Shown here: positions 40,211 through 51,743 of the stretch, piece by piece
How positions within the stretch are numbered: the stretch's first letter is position 1
How the letters are laid out: every line of letters starts with the position of its first letter
Assembly (NCBI GenBank): GCA_947488345.1
Contig: CANKZQ010000001.1
Span: forward strand, 486,501 to 550,500
Length of the DNA: 64,000 bases
From: an uncultured Flavobacteriaceae bacterium
Lineage (GTDB): Bacteria > Bacteroidota > Bacteroidia > Flavobacteriales > Flavobacteriaceae
Direction of reading: 5' to 3'
Notes under the pieces: generated by a model
Database searches by the model: none
Told to the model about the DNA's origin: nothing
Seen by the model: only the letters and a program-made list of their open reading frames with translations
Made by a program: the position numbers and the translations under genes

Positions 40211-41842
40211 ATGGCAGAAATAATTAACATGCCGAGGCTGAGTGACACCATGGAAGAAGGGGTTGTTGCAAAATGGTTAAAAAATGTGGGAGATACTATT
40301 GAAGAAGGCGATATTCTAGCAGAAATAGAAACAGACAAAGCCGTGATGGAATTTGAATCTTTCCATGAAGGCGTTTTGTTACACATTGGCATTTCTGAGG
40401 GTGAATCTGCCAAGGTAGATTCATTACTCGCAGTGATTGGTGAAAAAGGTGAAGATGTTTCTGCCCTTATAGAAAGTGCTTCGAAAGAAGCAGCCGCAGC
40501 AAAAGTTGAAGCGACTAAGGAAGAAGTGAAAGCGATAGAAGAAAAACCAACTCAAGAAGACACTTCATCGGCAAACTTACCAGACGGTGTAGAAATTATT
40601 ACGATGCCACGCCTAAGCGATACAATGACTGAAGGTACCGTTGCAACTTGGTTAAAAAATGTAGGAGACGATATTAGTGAAGGCGATATTCTAGCCGAAA
40701 TAGAAACTGATAAAGCCACCATGGAATTTGAATCTTTCTATGAAGGAAATTTATTATACATTGGTGTAAATGAAGGTGAATCTGCCATAGTTGATAGTGT
40801 ATTAGCGGTAATTGGCAGCAAAGGAACCGACATTTCTGGTGTGATAGAAGATATTAAAAAAGGTGCTTATTCGAAAGCGGCTTCATCGAATAAAGAAACG
40901 TCTGAACCTGTTAAAACCGACGTACCTTCTGTAAAGGAAACACCAATTATTGCTGCACCAGCTGCGATTACAAAAACCAACGAAGGAGGTAGAATTTTTG
41001 CCTCTCCTTTGGCGAAGAAAATAGCACAAGAAAAAGGCATTAATTTAGCACAAGTTCAAGGTACTGGTGAAAATGGAAGAATCGTAAAGAGCGATATTGA
41101 GAATTTCACACCGAGTACTGGCGGAAGCGCTGCAGTACCTTTTGTTCCTTCTGGACAAGAGAGTTCTGAAGAAACGCCTAACTCGCAAATGCGTAAAGTT
41201 ATTGCACGTCGTTTAGGAGAATCTAAATTCACGGCACCACATTACTATTTGAATGTTGAATTCAATATGGATAACGCCATTGCCTTTAGACAACAATTTA
41301 ATTCAATGCCAGATACCAAAATTTCATTTAATGATATTGTCGTAAAGGCAACAGCATTAGCATTGAAACAACATCCGCAAGTGAATTCTCAATGGTTCGA
41401 TGATAAAATTAAAAAGAATCATCATGTACATATTGGAGTTGCCGTCGCTGTTGAAGATGGCTTACTCGTACCTGTGGTGCGTTTTGCTAATGAGCAAACT
41501 TTACCGCAAATTGGAGCGCAAGTGAAAGAATATGCTGGGAAAGCACGTAATAAGAAACTAACGCCGCAAGAAATGGAAGGAAGTACCTTTACCATTTCTA
41601 ATTTAGGAATGTTTGGTATTACTGACTTCACCTCTATTATCAATCAACCAAATTCAGCCATCTTATCTGTTGGAGCAATTGTTCAAAAACCAATTGTAAA
41701 AGACGGACAAATAGTAGTTGGGAATACGATGAAACTCACGATGGCATGTGACCATAGAACAGTCGATGGAGCAACTGGAGCACAATTCTTGCAAACGTTA
41801 AGAGGTTTTATTGAAAATCCGGTGACAATGTTGGTTTCATAA
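40211..41842 (+). CDS. pdhC: Dihydrolipoamide acetyltransferase (PDH E2) with two lipoyl domains
   Basis: 543 residues from the ATG at 40211, which starts the canonical MAEIINMPRLSDTM; the longer frame from 40163 adds an unrelated hydrophobic lead. Two lipoyl domains (about 1-78 and 130-205), each with EIETDKA and a lipoyl lysine (K43 in the first), then a subunit-binding domain (ASPLAKKIAQEKGI) and the acetyltransferase core ending in CDHRTVDGA with the catalytic His. It transfers acetyl to CoA. The two lipoyl domains are near-identical in part, indicating an internal duplication. Confidence 0.93.
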   Translation: MAEIINMPRLSDTMEEGVVAKWLKNVGDTIEEGDILAEIETDKAVMEFESFHEGVLLHIGISEGESAKVDSLLAVIGEKGEDVSALIESASKEAAAAKVEATKEEVKAIEEKPTQEDTSSANLPDGVEIITMPRLSDTMTEGTVATWLKNVGDDISEGDILAEIETDKATMEFESFYEGNLLYIGVNEGESAIVDSVLAVIGSKGTDISGVIEDIKKGAYSKAASSNKETSEPVKTDVPSVKETPIIAAPAAITKTNEGGRIFASPLAKKIAQEKGINLAQVQGTGENGRIVKSDIENFTPSTGGSAAVPFVPSGQESSEETPNSQMRKVIARRLGESKFTAPHYYLNVEFNMDNAIAFRQQFNSMPDTKISFNDIVVKATALALKQHPQVNSQWFDDKIKKNHHVHIGVAVAVEDGLLVPVVRFANEQTLPQIGAQVKEYAGKARNKKLTPQEMEGSTFTISNLGMFGITDFTSIINQPNSAILSVGAIVQKPIVKDGQIVVGNTMKLTMACDHRTVDGATGAQFLQTLRGFIENPVTMLVS

Positions 41843-41865: not shown

Positions 41866-41901
41866 AAGGCTTGTTAATTCAATTTAGCAAGCCTTTTTCT
41901 A
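41866..41901 (+). terminator. Terminator of pdhC
   Basis: AAGGCTTG (41866-41873) / CAAGCCTT (41888-41895), then TTTCT. It starts 23 bases after the pdhC stop and overlaps the final codons of the convergent response regulator. Confidence 0.75.
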
Positions 41902-42517
41902 TGGCCGTTTTTATGATGCCTACACTATTTTTTGCCCCGAGTTTACTCATCAAATTCATGCGATGTGTTTCTACCGTTTTCGGACTAATAAATAATTTCT
42001 CAGAAATTTCTTGTGTGGTCAATTCTTCCGAAATTGCCTGCAAAACTTCCTCTTCTCTTCGCGTCAATTTTGTGAATAAGGAGTTCTCTGTTTTTTTTCC
42101 TAAAGTTTGATTCAATAACTTCTTCTGAATATCTTTTTGCAAATATTGCTCTCCAGACAAAACCGTCTTGAAAGCTTCCAACAATTCTAATCTGTCTGTA
42201 TTCTTCAACAAATAACCGCTTGCTCCATTATTTAGCATTCTTTTTACAAAAGAAATTTCGTCAAAATTTGAAATAGCAATAATCTTTAGTAGCTCATTAT
42301 TTTTTTTGAGTTTTTTACAAAGATCAATACCATTCATATCTGGCAAATTGATATCCAATAATAAAATATCTGGTTGGTCTTTTTCAATACGATCAATAGT
42401 CTCTGTTGCATTATTATAGACACCAACAAACGTAACCTCTTTTGTATCGGCCAACATAGATTGAATACCTTTCAGTACCATGGGATGATCATCCGTTAAG
42501 GCAATTTTTATGGTCAT
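41879..42517 (-). CDS. LuxR/NarL-family response regulator
   Basis: 212 residues with receiver domain (D9 and D10 in TDDHP, phospho-acceptor D55 in LLLDINLPD) and C-terminal LuxR helix-turn-helix (LTRREEEVLQAISEELTTQEIS...KTVETHRMNLMSKL, about 148-205). Its start overlaps by 4 bases the stop of the histidine kinase, so it is the cognate partner. The transcript also carries a lipoprotein gene and begins with promoter element A, which also precedes two neighbouring transcripts. It is the best candidate for the protein that binds the palindrome. Confidence 0.92.
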   Translation of the reverse strand: MTIKIALTDDHPMVLKGIQSMLADTKEVTFVGVYNNATETIDRIEKDQPDILLLDINLPDMNGIDLCKKLKKNNELLKIIAISNFDEISFVKRMLNNGASGYLLKNTDRLELLEAFKTVLSGEQYLQKDIQKKLLNQTLGKKTENSLFTKLTRREEEVLQAISEELTTQEISEKLFISPKTVETHRMNLMSKLGAKNSVGIIKTAIEKGLLN

Positions 42518-44442
42518 ACTAATTCGTTTGTATTGATATCTATAATATACGAAGTTCCTTTGTTATTAGAATCAAAATCTAACTTCGCATTTAGATAATC
42601 GACTCTTGATTGGATGTTTTGCAAGCCTATGCCCCCATTCTTAACTTTTTCTTTATCAAAGCCTTTTCCATTATCTTCTACCGTTAGCTGAATCACATTT
42701 TCCCGGTGACTAATTTGAACCGCAATTTCGGTAGCCTCGGCATGTTTGACACTATTATTCACCAATTCTTGTACAATTCTAAAAATATTTACCTCTGCTT
42801 TTTTAGAAATATGAATAGCCTCCCCTATATGGTTAAATGTAACCTCTTGTGTATGCAAATTATTCGTCGTCGTACAAAAATCTTCTATGGTTTCTATCAA
42901 ACTAAAGTCTTTCAAGGAAGGAGGAATTAAATTATGAGAAATTGCCCTTACCTGTTCACATGACTTGTCAATCATTGATACGGCCTCATTGATGACTTCA
43001 TTATTTTTTTCTAACAAAGATGTTAGTTTATACTTTATAGCAGATAAGTCTACATTTACACCATCGTGTAGTTCCTTGGCAATGCGCAAGCGTTCTTTTT
43101 CCTCTCCTTCCATCAATGATTCTAAGGTTTGTACTTGTTGCTCTCTCTTTAAGGCTATAATTTCTTGATCCTTACGCTTTTGACGTTGTTGATATAAAAA
43201 CCATAACAAAACAGAACCTACTCCTACTACTAACAGTGCTCCTGTCATATAACTATACTGTGTTTTCTTCTTTTGAAGTTCCAGCTCATTTTTCTCAATA
43301 GCTAATTTTTGCTCAGCTAATTCTTTATCTTTCTTTTCTGAATCAAATTTCGCATCTGCATCCGCTAAAAGCGCTCTATTTTCAACTGTGACAACCGAAT
43401 CTTTAATGATAACATACTTTTTTAATAATCGTGTTGCTTCCTTAAAATTACCTCTTTCCATTTCAAAATCAGCCCAATATCTGAACTCGCTCATTCCGAC
43501 ATTACCGAAATAAATACTATCATACAATTTCTCAAATTTTTCATAATTCTTTTTTGAACTTTTATAGTTGCCTAAGAAACCTTCTACCCTTCCTAAATAC
43601 ATATAGCTTCGCAATATATCGTCTGGAGCATTCCTAATCTCAGCAAATCTCTTGGTATTAAGAACGTAAGTCTTCGCCAGTTTATAATTCTCTTCTTCTA
43701 AGTAAAGTTCGCCTAGCATTAGATTCACAATATGACATATTTGAGGGTTCGAATCTTCTTGGCAAATTCTAATACCTTTCTGCAAATAATACTTTGCACT
43801 ATCCTTTTGTTGATTTGTATTAAATAGGTGCCCAAGTCCAGCCAACGCATAACCTTCCACTCTTTTATCACCCGACATGGAGGCCTTAATATATGCTAAT
43901 TTTAAGTATTTTTTTGCTTCGCTATAAAGTTCTAAATCCAGATAAAAACTAGCCAAATTGAAATAAAGCAAACAGACTTCCGCTTCATTATCTTTTACAA
44001 GATCAATACCTTTCTTAAGGTATTCTATCGCCTTATTCAACTCTCGTTTTTTCTGGAGTAAGGTTGAATAATTCGTATATATTGTTGATGTTTCAATTGG
44101 ATTAAAATTCTCCTTCGCTAATCCTAATGCTTTTTTAAAATAAAATTCAGCAGAATCTAATTTATTTTGATACATGAACTTTAGACCCTTTGCATCATAA
44201 ATTCGAGCCAACTTAAAGTTGTTATTTTTTAAAGAAACTTCTTCTAATGCATCTATATACTTCGCAAAACTATCTAAATCAATAGACATATACTCTCTTG
44301 CTATTAACCAATAATTATTTAATAGTATAGTATCCTGATTTTTTAAATTAACAGATGCTTTTAAGCTATCTAAAATTTTTGACTGAGCATTACCATTCCA
44401 AATAACAGAATATAAAATGAGTAGGCACGTAATTTTCTTCAA
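42514..44442 (-). CDS. TPR-containing sensor histidine kinase (HisKA_3 type)
   Basis: 642 residues. Signal peptide MKKITCLLILYSVIWNGNAQ, a periplasmic region of about 370 residues with several tetratricopeptide repeats (for example AEFYFKKALGLAKE, AIEYLKKGIDL, AKKYLKLAYIKA), a membrane segment near 400-420, then a HisKA_3 dimerisation domain with the phospho-acceptor His in AKELHDGVNVDLS and a HATPase (VNNSVKHAEATE, VEDNGKGFD). The TPR domain probably senses a periplasmic protein or peptide. It lies 25 bases behind the lipoprotein gene. Confidence 0.93.
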   Translation of the reverse strand: MKKITCLLILYSVIWNGNAQSKILDSLKASVNLKNQDTILLNNYWLIAREYMSIDLDSFAKYIDALEEVSLKNNNFKLARIYDAKGLKFMYQNKLDSAEFYFKKALGLAKENFNPIETSTIYTNYSTLLQKKRELNKAIEYLKKGIDLVKDNEAEVCLLYFNLASFYLDLELYSEAKKYLKLAYIKASMSGDKRVEGYALAGLGHLFNTNQQKDSAKYYLQKGIRICQEDSNPQICHIVNLMLGELYLEEENYKLAKTYVLNTKRFAEIRNAPDDILRSYMYLGRVEGFLGNYKSSKKNYEKFEKLYDSIYFGNVGMSEFRYWADFEMERGNFKEATRLLKKYVIIKDSVVTVENRALLADADAKFDSEKKDKELAEQKLAIEKNELELQKKKTQYSYMTGALLVVGVGSVLLWFLYQQRQKRKDQEIIALKREQQVQTLESLMEGEEKERLRIAKELHDGVNVDLSAIKYKLTSLLEKNNEVINEAVSMIDKSCEQVRAISHNLIPPSLKDFSLIETIEDFCTTTNNLHTQEVTFNHIGEAIHISKKAEVNIFRIVQELVNNSVKHAEATEIAVQISHRENVIQLTVEDNGKGFDKEKVKNGGIGLQNIQSRVDYLNAKLDFDSNNKGTSYIIDINTNELV

Positions 44443-44467
44443 AGCAGTTGATTTTTAAGTAAATATA

Positions 44468-44938
44468 CTAATTTAGAAGCTTTTCTAAATGTAAAATTTC
44501 GGGTGTATTATTGCTAATTCGTTCTTCAAATTCTATTTTATCAGCATTATTTAATACTTTTTTCACAATCCATTCTTCACTTAAATCTTGAAGATCACCA
44601 TCTCCGGGATTAACCGTATTAGAAAAATTGACCTTTGCTATCCAAGATGCTGAACCATTTATTGTTTCTTGAAATACATTTAATATACCTAACTCAGTAG
44701 TACCATTGCTTTTTACCCAAACGCTTTCTTCTTCAAAATCGAAGGTAAATTCATAACCACTAAACTCTTGTGTTCTTTGGGCATTTTCATCAGAGAAAAA
44801 ACTAATGCGCCATGTTCCATCCAATAATTCTGGTGAAAATTTAATGTTTAAATTATCTGAACCGTCGTCATCATTACTACAATTCACGAGAAAAAACACT
44901 ACTACAATTAGACTTGTGAGCTTACTTATTTTATTCAT
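44468..44938 (-). CDS. Lipocalin-like lipoprotein of the HK-RR operon
   Basis: 156 residues. Signal with lipobox LVNC (Cys20), then an acidic DDDGSD spacer. The body starts LLDGTWRISFFSDEN, the GxW pattern of lipocalin-like proteins, with further strands (YEFTFDFEEESVWV, WIAKVNFSNTV). It is first in the transcript with the TPR kinase and regulator, so it may be a sensor partner or output of the system. Its ATG is 24 bases from TAGCTTGC of element A. Confidence 0.75.
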   Translation of the reverse strand: MNKISKLTSLIVVVFFLVNCSNDDDGSDNLNIKFSPELLDGTWRISFFSDENAQRTQEFSGYEFTFDFEEESVWVKSNGTTELGILNVFQETINGSASWIAKVNFSNTVNPGDGDLQDLSEEWIVKKVLNNADKIEFEERISNNTPEILHLEKLLN

Positions 44939-44962: not shown

Positions 44963-45034
44963 GCAAGCTATCAACACATTCTATAAAATAAGTAAGGGCA
45001 TTCCTTGATTTTAAAAAATCAGGGAATACCCTTA
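44963..45034 (-). promoter_or_regulatory. Regulatory element A (palindrome plus TAGCTTGC box)
   Basis: Read on the minus strand: a 42-bp inverted repeat at 45034-44993 (TAAGGGTATTCCCTGATTTT pairing with AAAATCAAGGAATGCCCTTA), then 22 bases, then TAGCTTGC (44970-44963), then 24 bases to the ATG. The same order and spacing recur at 46712 and 48095. TAGCTTGC resembles the -7 box TAnnTTTG. The palindrome sits where an activator would bind. It may also end the LRR transcript that stops 16 bases upstream. Confidence 0.8.
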
Positions 45035-45050
45035 GAAAATTCAAGCAATC

Positions 45051-45962
45051 TTAAAAGCAAAGGAACCAATTGTCAATATAAACAATTGTCTGTCTCTTGG
45101 AATTTAATTCACAGACTTGTTGGGGCATGCTATTCAAATTTAAATTACCTCTTAGATCAATAAATTCGATACTCTCTAAACTCCCTATTTGGTATGGTAC
45201 ACTTAATATATTATTTTGGTGTAAATACAGTTTTTTTAGATAGCTTAAATACGAAATTTCTTTTGGAATTGAAGTAAGATTATTTCGACCCAAATTAAGA
45301 TCAATTAGGGTAAGCTTTAGATATTTTATATCTGAGGAAACACTCGAAATATTATTTTTGAACAATCCTAAAATTTCTAAGTTGGGTAATTTATACATAG
45401 AGGGAAGAATCGAATTTATTTCATTGTGGGATGCATTAAAAACCCTTAAACTCTTCATTTTGCCTATTACTCCTGGAATTTCAATAAAATTATTAAAGCT
45501 CATATGTAAATCGGTCAGTTTAGTTAAATGAACCATTCTATCCGGTAAATTGCTCAACTCATTTCCTTGAATATAAAGCTGCTGTAAGCTACTAACTTTC
45601 CCTATTTGGGCTGGTAATGAGTTTAGGTTATTTCCGTTAAGATATAATGTAGTTACAGATGATAAATAAGCAATCTCTGACGGTAAAACATCTAAATTTT
45701 TGTTACTCAAGTTTAAATGAATGACCTCTCCCGAACTGTTTGTAATAACACCATTCCAATTATTAATATTTGTATCTGATACATCCCAATCTAAGGTGTT
45801 ATTAGGATTCGCATAATAGATTGCCTCTAAAGCCTTTTTTTGAATATCCGTAGCTTTTGTGTTTAACTCTATTTCTACGCTTTCCTTTTTAATTAGAAAT
45901 TCATCACTATTACATGAAATTACCAAATACATTAATGATACGTACACCAAAATCTTTTTCAT
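45051..45962 (-). CDS. Leucine-rich-repeat lipoprotein
   Basis: 303 residues. Lipoprotein signal ending in LVISC (Cys17), then about 60 residues containing LEAIYYANPNNTLDWD, then about nine LRR units of 23 residues with the pattern L-x-x-L-x-L-x-x-N-x-L-x-x-L-P (for example VTTLYLNGNNLNSLP, LQQLYIQGNELSNLP). It ends in VCELNSKRQTIVYIDNWFLCF with possible capping Cys residues. Extracellular LRR proteins usually bind proteins. It lies 17 bases behind the barrel gene in the same transcript. Confidence 0.85.
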   Translation of the reverse strand: MKKILVYVSLMYLVISCNSDEFLIKKESVEIELNTKATDIQKKALEAIYYANPNNTLDWDVSDTNINNWNGVITNSSGEVIHLNLSNKNLDVLPSEIAYLSSVTTLYLNGNNLNSLPAQIGKVSSLQQLYIQGNELSNLPDRMVHLTKLTDLHMSFNNFIEIPGVIGKMKSLRVFNASHNEINSILPSMYKLPNLEILGLFKNNISSVSSDIKYLKLTLIDLNLGRNNLTSIPKEISYLSYLKKLYLHQNNILSVPYQIGSLESIEFIDLRGNLNLNSMPQQVCELNSKRQTIVYIDNWFLCF

Positions 45963-45979
45963 AATACTTTCTTTAATTC

Positions 45980-46672
45980 TTAGAAGGTGTAAAAGAGACT
46001 TATATTGAAAACACCTGTTTTAATTTCAAAACCTTGTCTAAATTCTTCGTCAACCTCTTTGGAACTCAACGTAGAATGCTCTTTTCTTTCACTAAGATTA
46101 AGTGAAAAATCATAAATATCAGTCAATCCTAAGTTGTATCTTACAGCTAACCCAAAGCCATTATCTAACTGGTAACCCGCACCTAAATTTAAACTAATGT
46201 TAGAGCCCTTCAACAATCTTTTGGCGTCACTTTCAAACTTTTCACCATCTTCTTCTTCTTTAAACTTTGCATTCATTAAAAAACCAAGCTGAGGCCCAAC
46301 TTCTAAATTTAATTTTTCAGTCATATAATATTTTGATACAACCGACACATTCAAATAATCTAAAGCTGCGGTCACTTTATAATCTTCATCAGAATACTTT
46401 TTACTTACACCTTCTTGAGAGTAAGTAACTTCGCCTTGTAATGAGATTTTTTTAGACAACGAGTAGTCCACAAACCCACCTAGAGATATCCCGAATCTGG
46501 TTTCTCCCCCAGGTTCACCCAAAAATCTATCAATACCATTTCCTGTTGCATTCGCAAAATTTACTCCTCCTTTTATGCCAAATTTGATTTTCTCACTTTG
46601 TAGTTTATCATCTTGTGCATTGATAACGTAACAGAAACATACTGCAAGGGCAGTTAATACTAACTTTTTCAT
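45980..46672 (-). CDS. PorT-like outer-membrane beta-barrel protein
   Basis: 230 residues from the ATG at 46672. The frame is open to 46726, but element B's TAGCTTGC (46719-46712) lies inside that extension, so the mRNA cannot include it. Signal MKKLVLTALAVCFCYVINAQ, then IKFGIKGGVNFANATG, the start of OMP_b-brl_2/PorT-type barrels, and amphipathic strands to a terminal aromatic (ISLFYTF). It is probably an eight-stranded barrel. Co-transcribed with the LRR lipoprotein, which could be its surface partner. Confidence 0.85.
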   Translation of the reverse strand: MKKLVLTALAVCFCYVINAQDDKLQSEKIKFGIKGGVNFANATGNGIDRFLGEPGGETRFGISLGGFVDYSLSKKISLQGEVTYSQEGVSKKYSDEDYKVTAALDYLNVSVVSKYYMTEKLNLEVGPQLGFLMNAKFKEEEDGEKFESDAKRLLKGSNISLNLGAGYQLDNGFGLAVRYNLGLTDIYDFSLNLSERKEHSTLSSKEVDEEFRQGFEIKTGVFNISLFYTF

Positions 46673-46711
46673 AGATTTTACATTTTTTAAATTATTAATT
46701 AGTCTATACAT

Positions 46712-46780
46712 GCAAGCTACCACCACCTTCTAAAAAAAAAGTAAGGGCATTCCTTGATTTTAAAAAATCAGGGAAAACCC
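46712..46780 (-). promoter_or_regulatory. Regulatory element B
   Basis: Minus strand: a palindrome (46780-46742) whose outer arm is worn (AAAACCCC in place of AATACCCTTA on the plus strand), 22 bases, then TAGCTTGC (46719-46712), 39 bases before the ATG at 46672. The 30-base offset from palindrome edge to box is the same as in A and C. A separate terminator (46786-46827) serves the gene upstream. Confidence 0.78.
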
Positions 46781-46785
46781 CGAAA

Positions 46786-46827
46786 TTAAAAAAGGTGTTA
46801 AAAGAATATATATCCTTTAACACCTTT
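46786..46827 (-). terminator. Terminator of the alpha/beta hydrolase gene
   Basis: AAAGGTGTTAAA (46791-46802) / TTTAACACCTTT (46816-46827); on the minus strand the stem is followed by TTTAATTTC. It begins 27 bases after the stop at 46854. Confidence 0.8.
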
Positions 46828-46853
46828 ACAAGTGATTGTTAACCATTTAAACA

Positions 46854-47795
46854 TCACTTAACTAATTCAAATTCATATATTGGTTCTATAATAAATTCAA
46901 CAACTCGCTCCAGAATTTTCTTAGATCTTAAATTATGTCCTAATCCTTTGGTTTGTATATATTCTAATGATGGCACCGCTGTAATTAACCTCCTCGGTTC
47001 ACTTCTAGGAACAACCACATCAGCAATATCATAGATAAGCAAACTCTTCATATTCAACTTTTTAAAATGCTTGATGATTGAAATGTCATGTACTGAATAA
47101 CCACCATAATTTGAGAAATTATTTTTCAGACTATCTATGATTTCAGCAGTAAACCCCATACACTTCGCAAATTTATTGATCAAGACTTCACTCGTGGCAA
47201 ATGTATTCATCATCACAAATTTGTTGGGGTGGTATTGTGGTTTTAACTCACTCATACCTACAACACTTACTAATCCTGCAATAGAATGTGTAATTACGGC
47301 ATGCCATGTTGTTTGAGATCGTAGTATTTGCTTGATTCCTTTTATATAAAGAGATAAGGTTAAAAAATAGCCTGAAGCACTCCCATGACCTGGTGCATCG
47401 ACAATCACCACCTTATAGCCTGAACGCACCAATTTATGTACATACTCTTTCCAACGTGCTGCGTTGCTGCCCCAACCATGCAACAATAAAATAGCAGGTC
47501 CTTCACCATAACTATAACTAATAAAGGTAGCATTCGCAATTTTGTATGTCTTTCTTGTTCCGTTATTGAAGAATTCAAGATCACTCAAGGATAATTTTCT
47601 TCGATTTGCAATAGACAATACTTTCATAGCCAGCCAACGAGACGTCGTCGGAAAGAAGGCATATAATGCATTTATACTATGCGTAATTTTAAAGAGATAG
47701 GCAGGGAAAAATTTCTTACCCAGTAACTTCGCCTTTACCTTCTCCTGTTTAGAAACTATGTTGTTTGATATTGTGGGTATCGCGGCATTTTTCAT
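46854..47795 (-). CDS. Alpha/beta hydrolase
   Basis: 313 residues. The hydrolase core begins after about 75 residues: AILLLHGWGSNAARW (oxyanion loop, about 105), VVIVDAPGHGSASG, then AVITHSIAGLVSV, where the nucleophile elbow reads H-S-I-A-G with the usual Ser, IYDIADVVVPRSE with the acid, and GLGHNLRSKK with the catalytic His. The triad looks complete. There is no signal peptide, but an N-terminal helical lead (FLPAYLFKIT) may associate with the membrane. It is the second gene behind element C, so it is probably part of the regulon. The substrate is unknown. Confidence 0.85.
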   Translation of the reverse strand: MKNAAIPTISNNIVSKQEKVKAKLLGKKFFPAYLFKITHSINALYAFFPTTSRWLAMKVLSIANRRKLSLSDLEFFNNGTRKTYKIANATFISYSYGEGPAILLLHGWGSNAARWKEYVHKLVRSGYKVVIVDAPGHGSASGYFLTLSLYIKGIKQILRSQTTWHAVITHSIAGLVSVVGMSELKPQYHPNKFVMMNTFATSEVLINKFAKCMGFTAEIIDSLKNNFSNYGGYSVHDISIIKHFKKLNMKSLLIYDIADVVVPRSEPRRLITAVPSLEYIQTKGLGHNLRSKKILERVVEFIIEPIYEFELVK

Positions 47796-47834
47796 AAGTG
47801 CTGTAATTTTTGTAGTTCATCAAATCTTCCGGTC

Positions 47835-48068
47835 TTATTTTCCGGTATTCCTTTTGATGACAAATACATTTAAATTACTGAAATCGATGTTTGATATTTT
47901 GCCCACATCTTTGACGACAATGTTTGCATAATAGCCAATCAGTAATAGAATTTCGATACCAATAAACAACCAAGGATTTACGTCCTTAATAAGGATAGCT
48001 ATCGCTTGAGAGACTAAAGCAGTCGTGTTGAATAAAATTAAAATGATAAGAATAATTGAAGTTTTCAT
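47835..48068 (-). CDS. Small two-helix membrane protein
   Basis: 77 residues with two hydrophobic segments (about 4-27 and 33-50) and a short soluble tail (KDVGKISNIDFSNLNVFVIKR). No named family recognised. The ATG at 48068 lies 26 bases behind TAGCTTGC of element C. It is the first gene of the transcript with the alpha/beta hydrolase (39-base gap). It may be a membrane partner for the hydrolase or a small stress protein of the regulon. Confidence 0.7.
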   Translation of the reverse strand: MKTSIILIILILFNTTALVSQAIAILIKDVNPWLFIGIEILLLIGYYANIVVKDVGKISNIDFSNLNVFVIKRNTGK

Positions 48069-48094
48069 AGCTCGTATTTTTTACAATTTTTCTT

Positions 48095-48166
48095 GCAAGC
48101 TACCTCAACATCATAGAAAAAAAGTAAGGGCATTCCATGATTTTGAAAAATCAGGGAATACCCTTA
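48095..48166 (-). promoter_or_regulatory. Regulatory element C
   Basis: Minus strand: a 42-bp palindrome (48166-48125, TAAGGG...CCCTTA), 22 bases, TAGCTTGC (48102-48095), 26 bases to the ATG at 48068. It matches element A at all but a few positions in the palindrome (T to A and A to G changes near the centre). A separate terminator for the LysM gene lies directly upstream (48170-48197). Confidence 0.8.
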
Positions 48167-48169
48167 CTC

Positions 48170-48197
48170 AAAAAAAAGTGCTCAAAACGCACCTTTT
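48170..48197 (-). terminator. Terminator of the LysM/PBP1-like gene
   Basis: On the minus strand AAAAGGTGC - GTTTTGA - GCACTTTTTTTTGAG: a GTGC/GCAC stem, extended by A-T pairs over one bulged G, with a run of eight T. It begins 19 bases after the stop codon at 48217. Confidence 0.7.
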
Positions 48198-48216
48198 CGG
48201 CTATTTAAATCTGTAG

Positions 48217-50142
48217 CTACTCTGTTTCTGTAGCCATCGTTTCTTCAACTTTCACGATGTGTAAACCATCATATTTCATTAAATGTATACCTTGATTTAC
48301 GAAGCCCTTTCCTGTCTCACTTTTAACATATTCAAATTTAGAGGACGCTCTTGTGGAGTAACCTGCATTTAAAGCTCCGTTTGTATTCGAATATGTAGCA
48401 AAGCGCAATAACATATCATAGGTAACATCAAAACCTCTAAAGGCGTATTCTGATGGTTTACTATAATTCTTATGACTATACATGGTTACAAAATCTTTCA
48501 CAAGATCATCTTCATAATCAATATAATTGCTCGCGGTATAATGAAAATTGACGCGTGCTAGGTCATTATCATTTACATTCTTAAAATTTGAGCCTTTGTT
48601 AAATCCAAATAGTGTAATCTTTACTTTTTCAGACATTGAACCTAAATTTTGAACAACATCTGTAGTCACAATACCATCATTACTTAACAAAATCACAAAA
48701 TTATCTCTTTTTTCTACCACCTTTTCCATAAACAAATCACGTTTGATATATCCTTTCTCAGGTTTTAAAACAGTTATTTTATTCAAAGAATCTAAGGGTT
48801 GTAACTCTTTTAACATCTTGGCCACTTTTAACGAAGAAGTTGCTAAGGTATCCGTCACAATAACAATATTCTCATCTTTATAAGTACGTTTGATATGCTC
48901 CATTACATTCGTGATCATCTTATCCTCACTTGCGGCGCTTTGTACTAATTTACTATTGGCAATTAACCCATGATCTTTCTGCGATAATGGTGAAACGATT
49001 GTCACTTCTTTATTTTTCAGAATACTAGCGACAAATTGTACATTTCCAAAAAACAAGGGCCCTATCATAACATCAGCACCTCCTAGGTTTCCGCTGGCTA
49101 ATAAACTACTTATGACCTTCTTATTATTTTGTGTGTCAAAAACTTTCATATCTACAGATAAGCCCATCTTTTTTACCGAATCCAATGCCATCATAGCACC
49201 GAGATAAAAATCGGTTGCTATATCGGCAGTTCTATTTTTCGAAAAATCAACGGTCGGTTTATGACTCATTAATGGCAACATTAAAATTGCTTTTATTTCT
49301 TTTCCAACTGAAACCGACGGTATGAAGGCCGAGGTATTATTTTTTTCGTTTAACGGAATCTTTATGAGCATTCCTTCCTGGACACCTTCACGTAATTCAG
49401 GATTCGCAGCTATCAATTCTTCTTCTGTCATTTCGAAGAGCTGTCCAAGTCTGAATAAATTTTCTCCTTTTTCCACCTTGTGATAAGAAAATCCTTCTTC
49501 AGGGTCAGGAATTTCTTGAGTATCTGGCACCCAGATAATGTCGGTCATCTTAATTCCAGCTTCTTTTATTTGCGGATTTAATTCTTCCAACTTTTCTATG
49601 GAAATACCATACCTTCGAGAAATACCATATTTGGTTTCTTTTGGTCTTACTAAATAGGGCTTAGTGGCCATTGACAATTGCTCTTCAACCGCATCTTGTT
49701 TATAATTTCTCGGTACTGGAAACTTAATAATTTGCCCAGCTTTTAAGTCTTCGACTCTGAGAATAGGATTGTATTTTCTTAGAATTCTTTTTGAAACTCC
49801 AAATTCTTTCCTCAATCTAAAAAAGGTTTCCTTTGGCAGCACTTTATGTATCAGCATACCATTTTCGACATAATCTTTTCCATCATCTATAGCCGCTGAA
49901 GCAGGATTGTAATTTTTATTGGGTACAATTAAAATTTTTCCTTCAACAAGCGCATCATTTTCGGCAAGCTCTGGATTTAACTTTAGTAACTTATACGGAG
50001 TAATAACAAATTTTCTTGCGATACTTTGTAAGGTTTCTCCCTGTTGAACGGTATATGTTTCATATTTTTTATTCTGACTGAACATCGTACATGTCGCCAA
50101 AACAAAAAACAGAACCACTAACTTCAATTTTTTTATTCTCAT
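48217..50142 (-). CDS. LysM-repeat protein with a periplasmic-binding (PBP1/LivJ-like) domain
   Basis: 641 residues. Signal peptide at 1-22, then four LysM repeats (YTVQQGETLQSIARKF, HKVLPKETFFRLRKEF, YLVRPKETKYGISRRY, HKVEKGENLFRLGQLF; about 28-255), then a type 1 periplasmic-binding fold (about 280-625: ILMLPLMSH, DFYLGAMMALDSV, NIVIVTDT). This combination is common in Bacteroidetes next to guaA. It is anchored to peptidoglycan by LysM; ligand and partner are unknown. It is 57 bases downstream of guaA with two small hairpins between. Confidence 0.85.
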   Translation of the reverse strand: MRIKKLKLVVLFFVLATCTMFSQNKKYETYTVQQGETLQSIARKFVITPYKLLKLNPELAENDALVEGKILIVPNKNYNPASAAIDDGKDYVENGMLIHKVLPKETFFRLRKEFGVSKRILRKYNPILRVEDLKAGQIIKFPVPRNYKQDAVEEQLSMATKPYLVRPKETKYGISRRYGISIEKLEELNPQIKEAGIKMTDIIWVPDTQEIPDPEEGFSYHKVEKGENLFRLGQLFEMTEEELIAANPELREGVQEGMLIKIPLNEKNNTSAFIPSVSVGKEIKAILMLPLMSHKPTVDFSKNRTADIATDFYLGAMMALDSVKKMGLSVDMKVFDTQNNKKVISSLLASGNLGGADVMIGPLFFGNVQFVASILKNKEVTIVSPLSQKDHGLIANSKLVQSAASEDKMITNVMEHIKRTYKDENIVIVTDTLATSSLKVAKMLKELQPLDSLNKITVLKPEKGYIKRDLFMEKVVEKRDNFVILLSNDGIVTTDVVQNLGSMSEKVKITLFGFNKGSNFKNVNDNDLARVNFHYTASNYIDYEDDLVKDFVTMYSHKNYSKPSEYAFRGFDVTYDMLLRFATYSNTNGALNAGYSTRASSKFEYVKSETGKGFVNQGIHLMKYDGLHIVKVEETMATETE

Positions 50143-50199: not shown

Positions 50200-51732
50200 T
50201 TATTCCCATTCGATTGTTGCAGGGGGTTTAGAACTGATATCATATACAACTCTGTTGACCCCTTTTACATTATTTATAATTCTATTCGATGTTTCTTGTA
50301 AAAACTCATATGGTAAATTCACCCAATCAGCAGTCATACCATCAGTTGAAGAAACGGCTCTCAAAGCTACAACTTTTTCATAAGTTCTCTCGTCACCCAT
50401 TACGCCTACAGAATTCACTGGCAACAACATTGCTCCAGCCTGCCAAACATCATTATATAAATTCCACTTCTTTAATCCTTCAACAAATACAGCATCTACC
50501 TCTTGTAAAATTCGTACTTTTTCAGCGGTTACGTCCCCTAAAATACGAATTCCAAGTCCGGGCCCTGGAAAAGGGTGCCTGCCCAACAATTCAGCATCAA
50601 TTCCCATTGATTTTCCAACTCTACGCACCTCATCTTTAAAAATCATCCGTAAAGGTTCTACAATTTTCAACTTCATAAAATCAGGTAATCCACCTACATT
50701 ATGATGACTTTTTATTGTTGCTGAAGGGCCTCCTGTCACAGAAACCGATTCAATTACATCGGGATAAATAGTACCTTGCCCTAACCATACCACATCTTTT
50801 ATTTTATGTGCTTCATCATCAAATACTTCAATAAAAGTATTTCCTATAGCTTTCCGTTTTTGTTCAGGATCAGCAATTCCTTCAAGAGCTTTCAAAAAAC
50901 GTGCCGAAGCATCTACACCTTTAACGTTCAAGCCCATTCCTTTGTATTGTTCTAATACACTTTGAAACTCATTTTTACGTAATAAGCCGTTATTCACAAA
51001 AATACAATATAGATTTTTGCCAATGGCCTTGTCTAACAACACTGCTGCTACCGTAGAGTCAACGCCTCCAGACAGACCTAATACAACTTTGTCATCACCT
51101 ACCTGCTGCTGTAGTTTTTCTACTGTAGTATCTACGAAAGAATCGGGTGTCCAGTTCTGAGCTACACCGGCTATTTGCACTAAGAAATTTTCTAGTAATT
51201 GCTTACCATCTGTTGAGTGATATACTTCAGGATGAAACTGTATGGCATAGGTGTCTTCATCTTCAATTTTATAAGCTGCGTACTCTACATCATGTGTACT
51301 GGCAATTTTCTTATAGTGATCTGGTAAAGCTAAAATGGTATCCGAATGACTCATCCAGACTTGGCTTCCTTGCTTAATATTCTTAAACAAGGCATTTTCA
51401 CTTTCAATAAAAGATAAATTTGCTCTCCCATATTCTCTTGTATTCGATGCACCCACTTTACCGTCAAAAAAATGCACTAAGTACTGTGCTCCATAGCAGA
51501 CACCGAGTAATGGCTTGTGCCCTTTAATTTTTGATAAATCTGGTTGGGGAGCAATGTCACTATTTACAGAATGTGGGCTTCCTGATAAAATAACAGCCTT
51601 AAAATCATCAGCATCAAATTTGTCGCTGTTATAAGGGTGAATTTCACAATAAATGTTGAGTTCTCTAATACGGCGAGCAATCAATTGAGTGAATTGCGAT
51701 CCGAAATCTAAAATAAGTACCTTTTCTTGCAT
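50200..51732 (-). CDS. guaA: GMP synthase (glutamine-hydrolysing)
   Basis: 510 residues from the ATG at 51732; a TTG at 51738 in the same frame overlaps the -7 box. The class I amidotransferase domain (about 1-190) has the Cys nucleophile C79 (GVCYGAQ) and the His/Glu (FHPEVYH). The ATP-pyrophosphatase domain carries the PP-loop LSGGVDST (about 223-230), and the dimer domain has [15 protein letters not shown]. It converts XMP to GMP in purine synthesis. Its promoter box is only 3 bases from the ATG. Confidence 0.97.
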
Positions 51733-51735
51733 TTG

Positions 51736-51743
51736 CAAAAGTA
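51736..51743 (-). promoter_or_regulatory. -7 box abutting guaA
   Basis: TACTTTTG on the minus strand, exact TAnnTTTG, then CAA and the ATG at 51732. The transcript would start at or inside the start codon. No clear -33 box. Confidence 0.45.

Follow-up and report, generated by a model that had tools for sequence, protein, structure and literature searches.

Three copies of a two-dyad palindrome with a promoter-like box, linked to a NarL-type regulator with exchanged sensors in Flavobacteriaceae

The window considered here is a stretch of 64,000 nucleotides from an uncultured Flavobacteriaceae bacterium (GenBank assembly GCA_947488345.1, contig CANKZQ010000001.1, positions 486,501 to 550,500). 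It contains three copies of one element, each a 42-bp palindrome followed at a fixed distance by a box, and one copy precedes an operon that encodes a sensor kinase and a NarL-type response regulator. The element is present in many Flavobacteriaceae and in one Cytophagales genome with the same box offset, and it is found together with orthologues of the regulator. It is probable that the element is an activator-type promoter with the adjacent regulator as its putative binder. The sensors and the exported proteins of the system (the cargo) have been exchanged between species. For a NarL-type regulator of Bacteroidota, the element supplies a specific operator sequence and a promoter position that can be put to the test. 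No description of this operator was found in the open-access literature searched, which does not amount to a census.

Three elements with one geometry

Two tools were derived from the loci of regulator orthologues, a position matrix and a model called R1, whose E-values are rough. The parts of the three elements are as follows.

44993-45034, minus strand: element A, palindrome (two dyads), 5' of the lipoprotein-kinase-regulator operon; R1 E 3.7e-19
44971-44992, minus strand: element A, spacer, 22 bases
44963-44970, minus strand: element A, box TAGCTTGC, proposed -7 element
46742-46783, minus strand: element B, palindrome, 5' of the barrel and leucine-rich repeat (LRR) genes; R1 E 1.8e-15
46720-46741, minus strand: element B, spacer, 22 bases
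46712-46719, minus strand: element B, box TAGCTTGC
48125-48166, minus strand: element C, palindrome, 5' of the small membrane protein and hydrolase genes; R1 E 8.4e-18
48103-48124, minus strand: element C, spacer, 22 bases
48095-48102, minus strand: element C, box TAGCTTGC

An earlier, sequence-only reading of the window had described three 42-bp palindromes on the minus strand, each with a 22-base spacer and a TAGCTTGC box, and had placed an ATG 24, 39 and 26 bases past the box at A, B and C. Direct reading bears out all of this, with further ATGs at 0 and 27 at B. The extent given for B needs a correction, as the element is there but ends at 46783 and not at 46780; the outer arm of its palindrome is imperfect. 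The half-site TAAGGGNATTCCNTGATTTT, with up to three mismatches, matches the window eight times, six of these inside the three elements (shuffled sequences: mean 0.24, maximum 2). All three window occurrences of GCAAGCTA lie in the elements as well, a count that is not significant alone (in shuffled sequence the mean is 1.37, and three are reached in 17 of 100 shuffles). Across the source genome (3.80 Mb in 27 contigs, 95% complete), a 28-base palindrome pattern with up to three mismatches finds only A, B and C, while its reversed control finds nothing. R1 at E <= 0.001 returns the same three and nothing else, so that scanning the whole genome for palindrome and box yields the window copies alone.

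Architecture and occurrence in relatives

The element was aligned in 29 rows from 21 loci, namely the surroundings of regulator orthologues and of kinase matches in the same genus. The second row of genome G184 was placed by hand at offset 23, where another offset scored slightly better. The commonest letters are AAGGGTATTCCCTGATTTTT..AAATCAGGGAATGCCCTTACTTTTTTT with the box TAnCTTGC. Invariant in all 29 rows are GGG at 3-5, C10, C12, T13, A15, T18, C37, C38 and A42, and in the box A66, T69 and T70. Each half of the palindrome is itself a dyad, CAGGG-NATN-CCCTG, which is evident in elements of the CAGGG type; one G184 element has two perfect copies of it. This two-dyad structure is not visible from a single genome and emerged from the relatives. 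The distance between the dyads is 26 or 27 bp in the 29 rows, and the offset to the box is constant. In 21/21 orthologue loci the position matrix finds the element, and the distance from the 40/41-mer to the box is 23 nt.

In 299 genomes of the family, the 28-base pattern (again with up to three mismatches) occurs in the source genome and in one other, G175, where the element lies behind tpiA with TAGCTTGC at 22 nt; the genes after it encode an exported protein, then a TPR kinase and a regulator of the same type. Over 397 family genomes, which judging from the genome numbering include the 299, R1 reports 44 at E <= 0.001 and 28 at E < 1e-8. Over 395 genomes of the class it reports the source genome and three others at E <= 1e-4, all three weak (9.7e-6 to 9.9e-5). 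The scan of related genomes proposed in the sequence-only reading has thus located the element in many genera, where its box keeps a fixed offset.

Twenty-four elements outside the model were oriented by palindrome score alone. TAnnTT stands at offset 23 in 18 of them (15 on the called side, three on the other), and every other offset from 10 to 35 has it at most once per side. The six misses are CATCTTGC, AAACTTGC, AAGCTTGC, GATCTTGT, CAATTTGC (on the other side) and G248, which has no box.

A variant promoter with an activator-like site

It is the recurrence of TAnnTT at this offset outside the model that leads us to read the box as a variant -7 element. The likeness to the -7 box had been pointed out from the window alone, and the relatives add to it, since most of the variation in the box falls at positions where a -7 element is free to vary (TAnCTTGC; canonical-type boxes are TATTTTTG in G157 and TACCTTTG in locus L168). 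According to PMC6847099, the -7 element of F. johnsoniae spans T-12 to G-5, the start lies 4-5 nt further on where a promoter is probable, and a -33 element is less clear than the AT-rich motifs at -18 and -28. If the first T of the box is set at -12, a favoured T (column 59) falls at -18, a T run at -33 to -27 and the palindrome at -36 to -75 (40-mer form), and by arithmetic on that form the dyad centres lie at -42.5 and -68.5. Upstream of the 57 open reading frames (ORFs) of the window TAnnTTTG is enriched (19 vs 5.1 in shuffled sequence), whereas TAnnTTGC is not (4 vs 2.6). The position of the dyads suits an activator, and a poor -7 box next to a site near -42 would fit an activator-dependent promoter. 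An activator site upstream of the core promoter, as already proposed, appears to be the best reading of an element that keeps its box offset in many genera.

Association of the element with the regulator

The proposed activator and its kinase are encoded at:

41879-42517, minus strand: NarL-type response regulator (Response_reg and GerE, by Pfam), proposed activator
42514-44442, minus strand: sensor kinase with TPR ectodomain, HisKA_3 and HATPase (by Pfam) and, by eye, a signal peptide and one membrane helix
43183-44442, minus strand: exchangeable sensor part of the kinase, codons 1-420 (from identity comparisons and trees)

Orthologues of the regulator at 61% identity or more are present in 18 of the 299 family genomes, the source genome included. 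Kinase matches of at least 46% over most of the length are found in four of the 17 genomes of the genus (the source genome, G301, G312 and G313). All 18 orthologue genomes have the element at E < 1e-8, vs three of the other 281 (G118, G150 and G248). In G150 the kinase is present and the regulator is in two pieces (L156 6857-7494; different frames or a stop).

The association can also be approached from the element. Seven of the 28 genomes with a strong R1 match lie outside the 299. In five of them (G353, G362, G410, G402 and G345) an orthologous kinase-regulator pair adjoins the element, in G349 there is no pair beside it, and in G340 the contig ends about 1.1 kb past it. Five of the six testable element-first loci therefore have the pair, a HisKA_3 kinase and a GerE-domain regulator being encoded behind the element as in the window. 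A third set comes from named genomes. Sixty regulator relatives were listed, and those at 64% or more include seven repeats of genomes already examined. Among the regulator-first loci at this level that lie outside the model and have enough flank, all five carry the element (L165, L167, L168, L173 and L175); L167 is Splendidivirga corallicola, a member of the Cytophagales. No element was found in the sequence covered by three short contigs with regulators of at least 64% (L169, L171 and L176), nor at the other named loci, including the partial matches L183 and L212. At ten loci with regulators of 45-57% the position matrix finds none. The regulator had been named as the candidate binder from the window alone, and its co-occurrence with the element (18/18, 5/6 and 5/5) argues for that role.

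There is also a hint of matched residues. In the regulator motif SKLGA(K/R)NSV, R occurs in seven of 31 loci, and their sites start with C except for one of two in G026. However, C is also the first base at several K-type loci (G176, G108, G135, Gilvibacter and L168), and most R loci belong to a single clade, so a match between this residue and the first base of the site is suggestive only.

Two side observations concern loci where parts are missing. At L151 9929 and L152 9899 the elements lie behind tpiA with no pair within the stretch; at L152 the box is lost and prmA comes next, as if an operon had been lost. In Gilvibacter sediminis, L212 9001-9069 encodes 23 regulator residues only (95.7% identical) and looks like a decayed gene.

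Exchange of sensors and cargo

The comparison of the window with G313 gives 96% identity for the kinase part, 97% for the regulator and 21% for the sensor. For G312 the values are 85%, 89% and 20%. G312 and G313 have a common sensor (94%) and different exported genes, whereas the window and G312 have common exported genes and different sensors. The breaks are sharp. The DNA of the window and that of G313 stay similar through element C up to 1 nt past its box, and become so again at about kinase codon 422. For G312 the stretch similar to the window starts shortly before element B and extends to kinase codon 3, and similarity returns, again, at about codon 422. In another pair of genomes, G017 and G145, 8.7 kb of element and exported genes agree up to a break 8 nt 5' of the ORF-defined kinase start, and similarity resumes at about codon 367. 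The stretches from closely related species in which the sensor is replaced and the kinase part and regulator are kept are L056, L057, L092 and L093, compared with window 43183-44442. Neither the sensor-domain exchange nor that of the exported genes is visible from one genome.

Other kinases served as controls. For TPR kinase 1 (source genome, G312 and G313; L222, L223 and L224; Aureibaculum) the kinase part is 98-100% and the sensor 50-72% identical, and for TPR kinase 2 (source genome, G312 and G313) 79-84% and 63-76%. Against other genus members the control kinases give 52-96% for the kinase part and 41-95% for the sensor; no match was found for a third control kinase. Sensors of other kinases drift too, but not to 21%, and two controls lack the exchange pattern.

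Trees were built from 31 loci, leaving out G150 with its interrupted regulator. The trees were made quickly and have long branches, and the identities had been seen before the groups to be compared were named. In the kinase and regulator tree the four genus members form one group (support 87, not starred), as do G017 and G145 (99). The sensor data reject the genus clade (approximately unbiased test, 2e-141), G017 with G145 (3e-82) and the window with G313 (2e-125).

Genes behind the elements are mostly predicted to be exported (103 of 118 listings that are neither kinase nor regulator, by a crude script rule and with some genes listed twice), and the kinase and regulator come after them. Among 64 cargo proteins picked by hand from the listing, 11 match a type IX secretion system (T9SS) sorting tail. 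The same 64 include LRR (up to six), Kelch (four), barrel (four), lectin-like (four), DUF5018 (three), YadA head (two) and DUF285 (two) proteins. Effector names given by NCBIfam to LRR cargo were read as repeat similarity and not as function. In the window the cargo and its neighbours are:

44468-44938, minus strand: 156-aa lipoprotein-like protein without a Pfam match
45051-45962, minus strand: LRR lipoprotein-like protein
45980-46672, minus strand: outer-membrane beta-barrel (OMP_b-brl_2, by Pfam)
46854-47795, minus strand: alpha/beta hydrolase-like protein
47835-48068, minus strand: small membrane-type protein of 77 aa; four other genomes have relatives that lie behind the same element
Relatives of the 77-aa protein: L150 7137-7382; L161 18455-18700; L154 10058-10291; L157 9746-10024

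The relatives of the 77-aa protein (42-48% identity, in G402, G184, G345 and G410) each come straight after an element (in G402 and G345 it is weak), and the one in G410 is about 187 kb from the regulator of that genome. It is worth noting that this makes a small-protein family of 77-92 aa (MKTSI..., two hydrophobic stretches by eye) that lies behind the element in five genomes. The hydrolase as a query gave no orthologue set, its best other match being 39%. Elsewhere in the window, at 40216-40849, a 259-nt direct repeat (73%) in an acetyltransferase-like gene appears by eye to be two lipoyl domains and is ordinary.

Proposed mechanism

Each element would be an operator joined to a core promoter with TAGCTTGC as a variant Bacteroidota -7 element, and a single dimer of the NarL-type regulator from the operon of element A would probably occupy each dyad. 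The TPR sensor kinase would phosphorylate the regulator, whose dimers at -42.5 and -68.5 could recruit polymerase to a promoter with a poor box. Three operons would be switched on together and, as one of them encodes the kinase and the regulator, a positive loop would result. Within the family, element, kinase part and regulator have been kept and the sensor ectodomain and exported genes exchanged, probably by recombination in the constant flanks. A broader idea is offered tentatively, and we regard it as possible but not likely: the locus may be a polymorphic recognition system, in which a constant promoter and kinase-regulator chassis forms a self-reinforcing switch, species and even orders swap sensors and surface proteins with one another, and selection maintains diversity, either because kin or partners have to be recognised or because phages or rivals targeting the sensor have to be evaded. 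The locus provides natural chimeric kinases, with very different TPR sensors on one kinase-regulator core and nearly one boundary, and with this set signal specificity and the cause of sensor diversity become testable with one reporter.

Several points weigh against parts of this picture. The 18/18 co-occurrence is partly circular, because the model was built from orthologue loci. The 18 of 24 boxes at the expected offset divide into 5/5 for regulator-found elements and 13/19 for R1-found elements, the latter not fully independent because R1 scores the box. Sixteen genomes with weaker R1 matches (E 1e-8 to 1e-3) were inspected at a glance only. G129, one of the ten loci with a 45-57% regulator (here 53%), has a degenerate element with CAACTTGC at offset 23 (L110 6996-7065, R1 E 9.9e-4), so that the closest orthologues may not be the only regulators with this site, and the site family may extend past them. 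Some elements are orphans with no regulator close by, namely in G118, G349, G248 (box lost), G150 (site 1), G410 (second site) and G345 (second contig). Finally, the link between sensor and cargo is weak, with a partial Mantel r of 0.110 for any cargo (reached by 55 of 2000 permutations) and of 0.078 for the adjacent gene (176 of 2000).

Alternative explanations

The operator may be real and yet bind another factor than the adjacent regulator. Orphan elements in genomes without a listed close orthologue (G118 and G248) are in keeping with this, but the element and regulator occur together in the 18/18, 5/6 and 5/5 comparisons, and we think another binder unlikely. Slightly less likely still is that the adjacent regulator binds and represses. 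The sign of regulation is not readable from sequence, and the -33 region partly overlaps the spacer; against repression, the site ends near -36 and the box departs from the enriched TAnnTTTG, as in a weak promoter that needs help.

There is a small chance that the palindrome belongs to the upstream gene, as its intrinsic terminator or another RNA hairpin, and stands before a promoter by coincidence. Many elements of the AAGGG type have a T run after the palindrome, often behind tpiA, and G248 retains its palindrome behind tpiA without box or pair. Palindrome changes are also symmetric (25 cells changed on both sides vs 11.1; covariation 0.152 vs 0.079; 0 of 500 shuffles), which a DNA dyad predicts equally. 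However, the pair 12-30 is unpaired in 11 of 28 rows, inner pairs are often broken, and the consensus fold reaches only -6.0 kcal/mol with a covariation term of -0.01. Several CAGGG-type elements have no T run and yet the same box offset. A terminator scan, which looks for a stable stem and a T run after it, calls neither A nor C, and of the palindrome of B it calls a part (46783-46768). The separate terminators that had been claimed before the palindromes of B and C exist in one case: the scan calls one just before B (46827-46791) and none before C, where a weak stem and T run can be seen by eye near 48178-48198. The fixed offset and the regulator link would be left unexplained. A mobile repeat or attC-like recombination site spreading with gene cassettes is very improbable: loci have several near-identical copies and cargo differs between species, but the source genome has three copies, 5' of genes and at fixed promoter spacing, copies within a genome are mostly clustered rather than scattered in genes at variable spacing (the pattern that, by the sequence-only reading, would betray a mobile repeat), and no transposase or integrase was noticed among the ORFs listed at the loci, although no family search was aimed at them. 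The terminator, RNA hairpin, mobile repeat and attC-like readings were set aside on these grounds.

Comparison with known systems

The proposed activator-type promoter shares with Bacteroidota primary-sigma promoters (-33 TTTG, -7 TAnnTTTG) the TAnnTT core in most elements, a T at -18, AT-rich sequence near -28 and, in the window, an ATG 24-39 nt past the box. Unlike them, its box usually ends in GC and not TG, and no TTG is seen at -33. In class II activation, dimeric regulators bind near -41.5. The proximal dyad near -42.5, at constant distance to the box, is alike, whereas the second dyad 26-27 bp further upstream is not, and contact between the proteins is putative. In autoregulated two-component operons the site precedes the operon of its own regulator, as element A precedes that of its putative regulator; here, in contrast, two further local operons share the site, and sensor and cargo are exchanged between species.

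A further parallel is ComQXPA, the quorum sensing system of Bacillus, in which, according to PMC4008528, the ComP kinase has PF07730 HisKA_3, variability is concentrated in the N-terminal sensor part and the regulator is most conserved. ComA is described in PMC8895600 as a NarL/FixJ-type regulator. The locus likewise has a HisKA_3 kinase with a polymorphic N-terminal sensor and a conserved NarL/FixJ-type regulator. Its ectodomain, however, is a periplasmic-type TPR and not a set of membrane helices, exported multi-domain proteins stand in the place of comQ and comX, the sensor is replaced wholesale, and the sensor-cargo link is weak. Pfam finds no comQ prenyl transferase or comX gene among the proteins at 41879-44938, 45980-50142 and 50200-51738, very short peptides not being excluded. 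The locus resembles ComQXPA in layout and is not a member of it.

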